From: Cytophagaceae bacterium ABcell3
GTDB taxonomy: Bacteria; Bacteroidota; Bacteroidia; Cytophagales; Cytophagaceae
Assembly: GCA_030913385.1 (NCBI GenBank)
Contig: CP133159.1
Location: 3,742,584 to 3,806,583 of the forward strand
DNA length: 64,000 nucleotides
Reading direction: 5' to 3'
Every line of letters begins with the position of its first letter. The stretch's first letter is position 1. The notes below the pieces were generated by a model that saw only the letters and a list, made by a program, of their open reading frames with translations, was not told where the DNA came from and searched no databases. The position numbers were made by a program, and so were the translations under genes. Below, piece by piece: positions 4,944-46,600 of this stretch.

Positions 4944-7133
4944 TCAGAAGAGTTTGGCATTTTGCACTATGTCTATAGTAACATTGTAAAACTCTTCGTG
5001 AATGTTAAATGGCGTTTCCCCTTCTTTTAGTTCAGGTTTGGTGTAACTTCCATCCTCCTGAAGGTAATATGAGTTTACATTATCTTTCAAGTTATACACC
5101 AAAATATTAATAGCCTGTTTTTTGAGCAAAGTATCCACTATTAAGAACAAACTTTCAATCCTTCTTTCGAAACTTCTGACCATCATATCTGCGCTACCTC
5201 CGTACACCTTCGGGTCACCATTATTGTGAAAATAAAACAGCCTTGTATGCTCCAAATAGTTCCCTACAATAGACTTAACCAAGATATTCTCACTCACACC
5301 TTCTCTTCCAGGCCTAAGGCAACACATACCTCTTACAATGAGCTTAATAGGAACACCTGCATTAGAAGCACGATATAAAGCATCTATAACTTCTGTATCC
5401 TGTAAAGAATTAATTTTAATTACGATACCAGAAGGGAGCCCTTTAGCAGCATTAGAAGCTTCTTTGTCCATCAGTTCTATCAACTGTTGACGCATATCTC
5501 CTGGTGCAGTAATCAAGTTTTGGTAAACGCTTGGCAATGAGTGGCCGGTAATTACATTAAAGAAATCATTGACATCATGGGCGTACACCTCGTTAGTAGA
5601 GAGCAGCCCCAAGTCTGTGTAAAGTTTAGCAGTTTCCTCATTGTAATTACCACTGGACATATGCACATACCTGCGCACTTTATCGTCTTCTTTACGTACC
5701 ACCAAAAGAAGCTTGGTATGAGTTTTTAAATTACCTATACCGTAAATAACAAAACAACCTGCCTTTTGAAGCCTTTGGGCTTCTTTGATATTATTTTCTT
5801 CGTCAAAACGTGCTTTTACTTCAAATAAAACAGAAACGTGCTTACCGTTTTCAGCAGCTTTGAGCAGTGCATTAGAAACCCGAGAATCTTTAGCAAGCCT
5901 ATAAATGGTAATTTTAATAGCCAACACATGCGGATCCTCTGCTGATTTCTCTAACAGCTCTATCAAAGGCTGCATGTTGTTATAAGGATGGTGCATCAAC
6001 ACATCCTGATGTTTCAAGTATTCAAAAATATCAGAAGAATCCGGGCTTTTATAACTTAAAGGCGGTACAGGAGATGGTGGCGACGGTATTTCTCCCCTAA
6101 ATTCAGGATGTTTCACTATTTGCCATAGTCCCGTATAATCTATAATACCAGAGCTATTGATGATATTGTAGTCGTCTATATCCCAACGCTCCCGAAGGAC
6201 TTTCATCATCCAAGGGGAATATCCCTCTTCAATTTCAATTTTCACAACCCTTCCAGTCCTTCTTGACTTGAGCTTCCGCTTTATTTCATCAATAAAACGG
6301 GCTTCCATATCATCACTTTCATCCAAAGAAAAATCCCCGTTTCTTGTAATACGGAAAAGGTTGACAGAAATGATCTCTACATTCTTATACAGGCTATCGA
6401 TTTTCCAACGAATGACATCTTCAATCGGAACGAAAATTATAACCCCATCCCTTTCAATCTCATAAAATCGTGGCAGGTTTTGAGGTATCTGTACAAACGA
6501 AAGCCTTTTAAAGTCCTTGGTTGCATCAGGGCTTTTGGTTACCACCCCAAAGATCAATAGCTTATTCATCAAAATAGGAAATGAATGATAGCTATCATAA
6601 ACCATAGGTGTTAACATGGGGAAAATAATATTTTTAAAATACCCCAAGACCTTGTCCTTTTCCTCAGGAAAAAGAGAATCTATATTTGAAATAACAAAAC
6701 CATTGTCCTCAAACTGAGGGAGCAGTTTGTTTAGAAAAATTTCCCGTTGACTTTTATAGAAGTTTTGAACTTCAGAAAGTAGTTTTTTTCTAAAAGGTCC
6801 TTCTTTCAGACCAGAATAGTCAAACCTTTCTTTTCCATAATCGATATAATTATACAAACTGCCTACACGAATTTCAAAAAACTCATCTAGGTTAGAAGCC
6901 GTAATGGCAAGAAATTTTAACCGCTCAAAAACAGTTCTATTAGGCAGCCGCACCTGATCAAGTACCCGCTCGTTAAACTTAATCCAACTCAGGTCTCGGC
7001 TTATATAGTTACTGGTATTTATGGTTGTCTTTGGCTGAAATAGCATAGACAGTTTATTTTTTATACGTCTGGTAAAATTAAAAAAGGGCTCAAATATCCT
7101 GAACCCTAAATTATTTATGTAAAAGTTTGCCAA
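4944..7133 (-). CDS. ppk1: Polyphosphate kinase 1
   Basis: This protein makes inorganic polyphosphate from ATP. It has the N-terminal Ppk1 motif YISRDLSWIKFNERVLDQ, the PLD-like catalytic segments with KTHTKLLL (phospho-histidine) and YVHMSSGNYN, and the C-terminal FHNNGDPKVYGGSADMM. Length, about 700-729 residues, is typical. The longest start is a TTG at 7133 preceded by AGGAG at good distance; an ATG at 7046 gives 700 residues and starts closer to the conserved region, so the start is uncertain. It converges with the ppx-bphO operon (49 bp between stops). gyrB lies 72 bp upstream on the same strand. Confidence 0.95.
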   Translation of the reverse strand: MANFYINNLGFRIFEPFFNFTRRIKNKLSMLFQPKTTINTSNYISRDLSWIKFNERVLDQVRLPNRTVFERLKFLAITASNLDEFFEIRVGSLYNYIDYGKERFDYSGLKEGPFRKKLLSEVQNFYKSQREIFLNKLLPQFEDNGFVISNIDSLFPEEKDKVLGYFKNIIFPMLTPMVYDSYHSFPILMNKLLIFGVVTKSPDATKDFKRLSFVQIPQNLPRFYEIERDGVIIFVPIEDVIRWKIDSLYKNVEIISVNLFRITRNGDFSLDESDDMEARFIDEIKRKLKSRRTGRVVKIEIEEGYSPWMMKVLRERWDIDDYNIINSSGIIDYTGLWQIVKHPEFRGEIPSPPSPVPPLSYKSPDSSDIFEYLKHQDVLMHHPYNNMQPLIELLEKSAEDPHVLAIKITIYRLAKDSRVSNALLKAAENGKHVSVLFEVKARFDEENNIKEAQRLQKAGCFVIYGIGNLKTHTKLLLVVRKEDDKVRRYVHMSSGNYNEETAKLYTDLGLLSTNEVYAHDVNDFFNVITGHSLPSVYQNLITAPGDMRQQLIELMDKEASNAAKGLPSGIVIKINSLQDTEVIDALYRASNAGVPIKLIVRGMCCLRPGREGVSENILVKSIVGNYLEHTRLFYFHNNGDPKVYGGSADMMVRSFERRIESLFLIVDTLLKKQAINILVYNLKDNVNSYYLQEDGSYTKPELKEGETPFNIHEEFYNVTIDIVQNAKLF

Positions 7134-21107: not shown

Positions 21108-21380
21108 TATTTATCCAAGAACTTCCTTACTATAGCTCTCCTTCTGTGATAATATTTACTTGGATAACTGGGACACCTAGGGACACCCAAATAAAAAACA
21201 CATAAAACACTATAATTAAATTAGTTAACCACAACAAGCTTATATATCTGTCGAAGTCAGGAAAAAAACAGCAAGTTTCTAACAAATCCGCTATAGCTTC
21301 TTCCTTAAGCTAAAAAAACTCCTGAAGGCTTACGCTGACTAGGTCTACAAAAGAAGACGGTAAATTGCTGAGAGCGTAAT

Positions 21381-21429
21381 AAAAAAAGCGATGACTAAGC
21401 TGTTTGTATTCAGCTTGATCATCGCTTTT
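21381..21429 (-). terminator. tRNA-Ser terminator, unit A
   Basis: Minus strand: AAAGCGATGA..AAGCTG pairs with CAGCTT..TCATCGCTTT, followed by T7. It starts right after the tRNA copy at 21432-21531. Confidence 0.85.
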
Positions 21430-21431
21430 AG

Positions 21432-21531
21432 CGGAGAGAGCGGGATTCGAACCCGCGATACCCTTTAGGGGTATACACGCTTTCTCCCGATAGCTATCGG
21501 GATGCTCCTTCAACCACTCGGACACCTCTCC
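21432..21531 (-). pseudogene. Defective tRNA-Ser copy with palindromic insert in the anticodon arm
   Basis: This 100-nt copy equals the intact tRNA-Ser at 21807-21894 in the acceptor, D, variable and T arms. The six bases CGCCTG of the anticodon arm are replaced by the perfect 18-bp palindrome TCCCGATAGCTATCGGGA. The 5' strand of the anticodon stem is lost, so no normal anticodon loop can form. No promoter-like sequence precedes it, but the downstream terminator is kept. Confidence 0.8.
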
Positions 21532-21755
21532 TTTTATATGTTTTTCCTCCTGAGCTGGACACCCAAATAAAAAACACATAAAATACTATTATTAAATTAG
21601 TTAACCACAACAAGCTTATATATCTGTCGAAGTCAGGAAAAAACAGCAAGTTTCTAACAAGTCCGCTATAGCTTATTCCTTAAGCTAAAAAAACTCCTGA
21701 AGGCTTACGCTGACTAGGTCTACAAAAGAAGACGGTAAATTGCTGAGAGCGTAAT

Positions 21756-21804
21756 AAAAAAAGCGATGACTAAGCTGTTTGTATTCAGCTTGATCATCGC
21801 TTTT
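21756..21804 (-). terminator. tRNA-Ser terminator, unit B
   Basis: The same hairpin plus T-run as in unit A, placed directly downstream of the intact tRNA-Ser. Confidence 0.88.
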
Positions 21805-21806
21805 AG

Positions 21807-21894
21807 CGGAGAGAGCGGGATTCGAACCCGCGATACCCTTTAGGGGTATACACGCTTTCCAGGCGTGCTCCTTCAACCACTCGGACACCTCTCC
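21807..21894 (-). tRNA. tRNA-Ser (anticodon GGA)
   Basis: This 88-nt class II tRNA has acceptor GGAGAGG/TCTCTCC with discriminator G, and D arm TCCGAGTGGTTGAAGGA. The anticodon arm is CACGC-CTGGAAA-GCGTG (anticodon GGA), the long variable arm TACCCCTAAAGGGTA, and the T arm CGGGTTCGAATCCCG. CCA is not encoded. A near-consensus TAAAATTG lies just upstream and a terminator just downstream. It reads UCC and UCU serine codons. Confidence 0.96.
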
Positions 21895-21921
21895 TTTTAC
21901 AATTTTAACATTTTATTTTTA

Positions 21922-21997
21922 CGATACCCTTTAGGGGTATACACGCTTTCTCCCGATAGCTATCGGGATGCTCCTTCAACCACTCGGACACCTCTCC
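21922..21997 (-). pseudogene. Truncated tRNA-Ser copy, also with the anticodon palindrome
   Basis: It contains the 5' acceptor strand, D arm, the palindrome-bearing anticodon arm and the variable arm, and stops at GGGTATCG. The T arm and the 3' acceptor strand are missing. It lies upstream of the intact copy in transcription order. Because it shares the palindrome with the 21432-21531 copy, the insert predates at least one duplication. Confidence 0.8.
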
Positions 21998-46138: not shown

Positions 46139-46600
46139 TTACCCGCTTTTAACCTGTATGCACTGGTTTAAAGTTATGTTGCTACGTAATACTATTGCAT
46201 GTTTCAGGTTAAGGTTACCCGTTAAGATATCTTATGTTTTATTTGCTTACATATGCTCGCATAGTTACTTTTTGCCTCGCCGGCAGGGCCTTACTTTTTT
46301 TCTTGGACAAAAAAAGTAAGCAAAAAAGTCAAGGCCTGTGATGAAATTTGCTAAACTTTATAACCATTACGCTAAAAAATTTGAAACTCACCCTCCTTGC
46401 GTCGGGATCAAACAGCAAATTTTTTGGCCGCTTCATGGCTACAAAGTTCTTAACGCAATTTCATCAATGGCCGCCTTATTCTCTAACAATGACACATACC
46501 GCCACTTTAGGAAATCCGTGTAAATAATTTTATCATACAATATAAATTCACTACTTCCTAAAGACTTAAGTGGGTAATCCTATTTCAGGTTTACCCTTTG
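46139..46600. repeat. Gene-free spacer with long hairpin, probable dispersed intergenic repeat
   Basis: No credible gene is seen in these 462 bp. CTTACTTTTTTT (46290-46301) and AAAAAAAGTAAG (46309-46320) form a perfect 12-bp stem with loop CTTGGAC, followed by CAAAAAAGTCAAGGC. The following A/T-rich 150 bp has a frame without protein character. From memory, similar CTTACTTTTTT-hairpin blocks recur in Cytophagales intergenic DNA. A second inverted pair TAACCTG/CAGGTTA lies at about 46151-46217. Confidence 0.5.

Follow-up and report, generated by a model that had tools for sequence, protein, structure and literature searches.

Mitochondrial GC clusters and double-hairpin elements are mobile hairpins that lodge in the loops of rRNA and tRNA genes, and Rickettsia palindromic elements (RPE) measure about 100-150 bp. 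To our knowledge, the SDR elements of 21-27 nt are the smallest mobile elements described; Elhai et al., in 2008 (Genome Res 18:1484), reportedly presented SDR1-8 of Nostoc and relatives as 'very small mobile repeated elements'. RPE occur in frame inside open reading frames (ORFs) (PMC3733652), and SDR5 is reported to insert at a precise point of HIP1, between its bases 3 and 4 (PMC4390886). Here, we analyzed a stretch of 64,000 nucleotides of the genome of Cytophagaceae bacterium ABcell3 (contig CP133159.1, positions 3,742,584 to 3,806,583; hereafter the window), in which two tRNA-Ser copies carry a perfect 18-bp palindrome, TCCCGATAGCTATCGGGA. The palindrome is dispersed, has sharp borders, replaces 3-7 nt of its target, nests within its own copies, occurs with compensated stems, is restricted to one bacterial class and is present in functional-looking RNAs. 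It probably represents a very small, dispersed mobile repeat of that class, which spreads by replacement.

The tRNA-Ser region of the window comprises the following features:

21181-21484, minus strand: duplicated unit of copy 1 (3′ part of the tRNA, terminator and about 200 nt downstream)
21384-21429, minus strand: terminator-like hairpin with a T run, 3′ of copy 1
21432-21531, minus strand: tRNA-Ser copy 1, full length with the palindrome inside, a probable pseudogene (Rfam tRNA, 37.0 bits; rejected by ARAGORN)
21485-21502, no strand assigned: palindrome TCCCGATAGCTATCGGGA, 18 bp and perfect, within copy 1, in place of plus-strand CAGGCG of the intact copy
21557-21859, minus strand: duplicated unit of copy 2
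21759-21804, minus strand: terminator-like hairpin of the same sequence as that of copy 1, 3′ of copy 2
21806-21894, minus strand: copy 2, intact tRNA-Ser with anticodon GGA (ARAGORN call; Rfam, 55.8 bits; cloverleaf fold)
21922-21997, minus strand: tRNA-Ser copy 3, a 5′ part with the palindrome (76 bp of identity to copy 1; under the Rfam threshold)
21951-21968, no strand assigned: second TCCCGATAGCTATCGGGA in the window, within the shortened copy 3

The original prediction, made from the letters of the window, held that CGCCTG is swapped for an 18-bp palindrome in two of three tRNA-Ser copies, and this is what is seen at 21485-21502 and 21951-21968. On the sense strand, the intact copy reads GCA[CGCCTG]GAAAGCGTG, whereas copies 1 and 3 read GCA[TCCCGATAGCTATCGGGA]GAAAGCGTG. 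The anticodon is destroyed, because the six bases that are gone comprise, besides the final three of the 5′ anticodon-stem strand, C32-U33-G34; copy 1 is predicted to fold without an anticodon arm, its first anticodon base being lost. The claim that the other arms were kept holds for copy 1, but not for copy 3, which stops past the variable arm and is devoid of both the T arm and the 3′ acceptor strand. Over 76 bp, palindrome included, copies 1 and 3 do not differ at all, and the palindrome was therefore duplicated along with the tRNA piece, as had been proposed. The units at 21181-21484 and 21557-21859 share 98-99% identity over about 300 bp, at a spacing of 375-376 nt. The order of events would thus be a tandem duplication of the tRNA-Ser(GGA) gene, the palindrome event in one copy and then a partial re-duplication of the copy that had been hit. 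Both palindrome-bearing copies are probably ordinary pseudogenes next to an intact gene; damage to a copy is tolerated because the neighbouring intact tRNA-Ser(GGA) gene supplies the tRNA. No match to TCCCGATAGCTATCGGGA was found in 100 shuffled versions of the window. A promoter consensus upstream of the tRNA-Ser copies was also considered and discarded as uninformative, two-mismatch matches being present in 40% of random 90-nt windows. Elsewhere in the window, ATGATAGCTATCAT at 6585-6598 has the palindrome core GATAGCTATC and may be either a diverged relative or a chance match.

Genome counts were obtained by pattern searches. In the 5.1-Mb genome to which the window belongs, TCCCGATAGCTATCGGGA is present in 34 copies, as against none for the same letters reversed, which served as a control. 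The genome-wide count, other tRNA genes included, thus shows that the palindrome does occur outside the tRNA-Ser copies, and its copies occupy at least eight unrelated settings. Twenty-four of the 34 lie inside one dispersed repeat of about 240 bp (family A); the remaining copies, together with relatives differing by one or two mismatches, are scattered over unrelated places. The palindrome is carried by group II introns (loci L004-L008 and L035; Rfam), by REP-like hairpins (L013, L014, L037 and L040) and by the spacer between 23S and 5S in three rRNA operons (L033, L039 and L044). Two of the three tRNA-Asn genes of this genome (L043) hold it, with CCCC..GGGG ends, in the variable loop. These tRNA-Asn copies (L043 519-604 and 665-751; 5049917-5050150 of the genome) have kept the anticodon arm and may be working tRNAs with an additional arm. 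A one-base variant of the palindrome forms a hairpin tip of 23S rRNA in one rRNA operon, and the 23S rRNA of two operons (L262 and L263; the third operon is masked) differs exactly there, CTAA[TCCGCCAGATGGCGGA]GACATTG versus CTAA[TCCCGATATCTATCGGGA]GACATTG.

Family A is an intergenic repeat for which the RNA families searched yielded no known relative, and it is possibly a mini-transposon. Eight of its copies in this genome are empty, with AATTTTT, and 26 are filled; the filled copies include some with TTCC..GGAA stems, altered on both sides and hence compensated. One empty counterpart lies in the window:

46364-46391, minus strand: empty family A counterpart, GTGAGTTTCA-AATTTTT-TAGCGTAATGG (26 other genome copies hold the palindrome or a compensated variant)

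The 18 nt fold as TCCCGA-TAGCTA-TCGGGA. The terminal pair is exactly T...A in 154 of 168 non-redundant sites, which makes the palindrome a sharp 18-bp unit; the positions outside it are mixed, T being rare (6%) directly before the unit, and no fixed flanking tag (GTAG or CGTC) was found at positions -1 to -8 of the non-redundant sites. The loop that closes the TCCCGA/TCGGGA stem is almost invariably 6 nt long (TAGCTA in 260 cases, TAACTA in 14 and others in a few), while control stems made of the same letters in another order had, at the median, no occurrences. Compensated variants of the stem are TTCC..GGAA and CCCC..GGGG.

From the fetched loci, 181 distinct contexts were obtained, and a search for their empty counterparts was conducted allowing one mismatch per 12-nt flank. 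A counterpart was found for 42 contexts, and host bases had been replaced in every one of them: three bases were lost in 10 cases, four in five, five in five, six in 11 and seven in three (34 of the 42), with longer losses in eight, some of which consist of the palindrome itself. None of the 42 pairs represents a clean insertion (loss of 0-2 nt), and no target-site duplication was seen in the empty/filled pairs, target bases being lost instead. The event in the tRNA-Ser of the window, with 6 nt lost, is typical. Moreover, the palindrome is found nested within itself, as TCCCGA[TCCCGATAGCTATCGGGA]TCGGGA, at L045-L047, L049, L053 and L057. Two terminators of genome G007 differ in their tips from their orthologues in the congeneric genome G012 (AATGG[CGCTGTGTAGCG]CCATT versus AATGG[TCCCGATCCCGATAGCTATCGGGATCGGGA]CCATT), the last form of this AATGG...CCATT pair being a palindrome nested in a palindrome. 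The idea of a palindromic mobile unit, already put forward in the original prediction, is thus supported by 34 genome copies, 181 distinct contexts, empty counterparts and sharp borders.

The suggestion that such a unit targets the anticodon loop was too narrow: within tRNAs, the palindrome is found in the D, variable and T/acceptor regions as well as in the anticodon region, and tandem repeats, terminators, REP hairpins and ORFs are entered too. In a tRNA at L143 (59.3 bits), the palindrome is the D loop, and the predicted fold is a complete cloverleaf whose D arm is long. RNase P RNA carries the palindrome in four genomes, at three different positions (L058, L068, L082 and L083), and scores remain at 233-252 bits. 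Tandem tRNA-Leu-like units at L089 (1809-2518) each hold up to three palindromes, in the anticodon, variable and acceptor regions. A by-eye reading of tmRNA (transfer-messenger RNA) at L115 and L147 was given up, as it had no Rfam support; L115 has a group II intron elsewhere and L147 borders a Flavo-1 RNA. About 20 copies in G007 are the tips of terminator hairpins, and the flanking stem score in this genome averages 12.6, versus 3.5 (SD 0.9) after the left and right flanks have been shuffled between sites. A hairpin-apex rule for all sites was strong in G007 only and weak in the other sets; it was therefore reduced to a preference.

As for proteins, in 28 of the 181 non-redundant contexts the palindrome lies within an ORF of at least 110 codons and is read as PDSYR or PIAIG, a raw count that may include chance ORFs; the third reading frame contains a stop. 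Two palindromes 96 bp apart, at 403 and 499 of L094, are both in frame in one long histidine kinase-like ORF. At L048 (G007:C6:83600-84800), where several palindromes share 230 bp, a tRNA-like stretch holds two of them and a GIY-YIG ORF contains one, in frame.

In relatives, whose comparison the original prediction had suggested, the palindrome is patchily present: 23 copies were counted in G007, 10 in G004, seven in G002 and none in most. Cytophaga hutchinsonii seems to lack it. At the level of the order, it occurs in 62 of 391 genomes, with a maximum of 24 copies outside the genome of the window; at the level of the phylum, the window's class has it in 18 of 49 genomes, versus none of 149 from other Bacteroidota classes. 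Across 84,980 species, a scan for the palindrome at most 35 nt upstream of a T-loop-like motif returned at least 119 stretches, and all listed titles are of Bacteroidota; many matches are tRNAs but, because the motif is short, not every one. The commonest form, CACCTGACTC[palindrome]CAGGTGGTC...GGTTCGAGCC, is a piece of tRNA-Met with the palindrome as its anticodon loop. The host range is the window's class within the Bacteroidota (Bacteroidia, going by the named matches).

As to how such a repeat could spread, we propose that 3-7 nt of the target would be removed and the 18-mer placed instead, often at a hairpin tip or a short repeat. Because the palindrome has neither a target-site duplication nor a gene of its own, it must rely on host or other mobile machinery acting in trans. 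The moving form would be a hairpin of single-stranded DNA (or RNA). In an 18-nt hairpin, the two ends are separated by roughly the width of a duplex, and on geometric grounds this would suit joining over a gap of a few nucleotides. The joining that we favour is a ligation of the 18-nt hairpin across a small gap, or across a nicked loop of 3-7 nt, which replication would then fix. The element may still be mobile, and it appears to be among the smallest DNA elements known to spread. A bolder version, tentative and a little short of probable, is that of an autonomously recognisable 18-bp mobile unit, smaller than the SDR elements, that spreads by replacement throughout the class, possibly by ligation of a self-folded hairpin oligonucleotide into a gap or a cut loop, and that remodels proteins as well as working RNAs (RNase P RNA, 23S rRNA and the D and variable loops of tRNAs).

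Several observations weigh against a mobile repeat spreading by replacement. No candidate for the moving machinery was found in the Y1/RAYT and GIY-YIG comparisons: copy number does not follow the number of Y1/RAYT transposases (18 copies and one weak match in G316, no copies and six matches in G012), and GIY-YIG genes are common both with and without the palindrome. Amplification of a host repeat accounts for part of the copy number (the 24 of 34 copies in family A). The preference for hairpin tips is statistically clear in G007 only, several sites being off the tip. Lastly, the comparisons between genomes are at species level, complemented by those within a genome, which tempers the case for present-day mobility.

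The main alternative for the writing-in step, which we nevertheless consider unlikely, is template switching during replication, whereby imperfect hairpins would be rewritten from a palindrome copy elsewhere. The loss of a few bases with the gain of a templated piece fits this explanation, as do the many sites that are hairpins or tandem repeats, and compensated stems are consistent with hairpin correction. However, the 18-bp borders are sharp, the contexts are unrelated and have no common flanking bases, and a single fixed sequence throughout a class is unexpected if switching is driven by microhomology. Thus, the template-switch product envisaged in the original prediction survives as a possible mode of insertion, but leaves a fixed 18-mer with sharp ends unexplained.

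Somewhat more doubtful is a homing-type spread by small GIY-YIG endonucleases, which would cut the loops of tRNAs and other loops, the palindrome being a repair scar or filler. Many tRNA-Met and tRNA-Leu loci consist of an intact tRNA, a GIY-YIG ORF (PF01541) and a partial tRNA with the palindrome as its anticodon loop, in some cases as tandem units of about 407 bp; moreover, the gene adjoins the palindrome-bearing tRNA-Asn copies in the window's own genome and is present in 55 of the 62 palindrome-bearing genomes of the order. However, neither the gene nor a remnant of it was found in the 64-kb window, no such gene adjoins most of the remaining sites (terminators, RNase P, introns), seven palindrome-bearing genomes gave no match and many gene-bearing genomes have no palindrome. 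In addition, a palindrome lies inside the GIY-YIG ORF of L048 (at 664), and the gene is therefore also a target; the link may merely reflect the tolerance of leftover tRNA pieces to insertion. The association is striking at tRNA-Met loci, and it is neither necessary nor sufficient. The cassettes themselves, present in many Bacteroidota and formed by an intact tRNA (mostly Met), a terminator, a GIY-YIG ORF of about 95 aa and a partial tRNA (L087, L092, L114, L116, L121, L142, L165, L178 and L183; the tandem units of about 407 bp are at L121 and L142), appear to be homing elements of their own, directed at tRNAs.

That the palindrome is the footprint left by a larger transposon with ends TCCCGATAG...CTATCGGGA, after excision or internal deletion, is very improbable and largely refuted. 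A perfect inverted repeat could resemble two fused transposon ends, but only nine isolated half sites were found in 1.4 Mb of fetched loci, none of them paired around a gene, and target bases are lost with no target duplication. A fixed unit with exact ends, in unrelated contexts, that replaces bases and makes no duplication argues against a standard transposon, REP/RAYT and an excision footprint alike. A sequencing or assembly artefact is hardly credible: library preparation could in principle yield a constant 18-mer in place of a few bases, but the palindrome is confined to one class of one phylum (among the matches listed in the scan of the whole database), occurs in finished single-contig genomes and has compensated variants, and the duplicated units of the window differ by 1-2% and are therefore not assembly copies. 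We give just as little credence to a spliced or processed insert, removed from the transcript to leave a functional tRNA, since, although the other arms of copy 1 are intact, excision would restore neither the six lost bases nor the anticodon, copy 3 is shortened and an intact copy is present; the 'processing-dependent element' of the original prediction found no support either, with copies in which part of the anticodon or the entire 3′ end is gone, beside an intact tRNA-Ser(GGA). Apart from all these features, the window contains an S-adenosylmethionine (SAM) riboswitch at 193-293 on the minus strand (RF00162, 75.5 bits).

A mobile repeat of this kind offers a clean, testable case of the spread of elements too small for coding or for transposon ends, and, given the replacement signature and the exact borders, its mechanism is searchable. 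In RNase P RNA, 23S rRNA and tRNAs, the natural insertions mark where these molecules accept an extra hairpin, and the odd pseudo-tRNAs that annotation pipelines face in these bacteria are explained. A class-wide repeat that inserts by replacement merits a study of its own.

Within the literature covered, which leaves aside subscription journals, no paper with CCCGATAGCTATCGGG was found and CGATAGCTATCG appeared only in an unrelated cancer paper; a search on GIY-YIG, tRNA and palindromes in Bacteroidetes/Flavobacteria returned nothing on point. Among the systems compared, and as far as tested, none has the size, sequence and replacement signature of the palindrome. DDE-type insertion sequences and miniature inverted-repeat transposable elements differ from it in that it has no target-site duplication, and a tRNA intron differs in that removal of the palindrome leaves six tRNA bases missing. 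In contrast to a GIY-YIG homing element, it has no endonuclease gene within or beside the tRNA-Ser of the window, whereas many other tRNA loci do have such a gene. Mitochondrial GC clusters and double-hairpin elements are alike in behaviour alone, being organellar, longer and of different sequence. With REP/REPIN and RAYT, the palindrome shares its nature as a short dispersed palindrome, but it has no GTAG or CGTC tag, does not track RAYT, resides in RNA genes and is half the size of a REP. RPE are likewise palindromic, dispersed and in frame within ORFs, whereas the palindrome measures 18 bp and belongs to another phylum. SDR elements resemble it in being tiny and dispersed, in forming a hairpin with compensated changes, in having no coding capacity and in being restricted to one clade; moreover, both nest in their own copies, and the palindrome lies in larger repeats as SDRs lie in mini-transposons. 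Like them, the palindrome is a multi-copy unit of less than 30 nt with defined borders. What sets it apart is that it is a perfect 18 bp with one dominant sequence class-wide. Its targets include tRNA, rRNA, RNase P RNA and proteins, and it replaces 3-7 nt, whereas SDR5 is reported to insert cleanly into HIP1 (PMC4390886).
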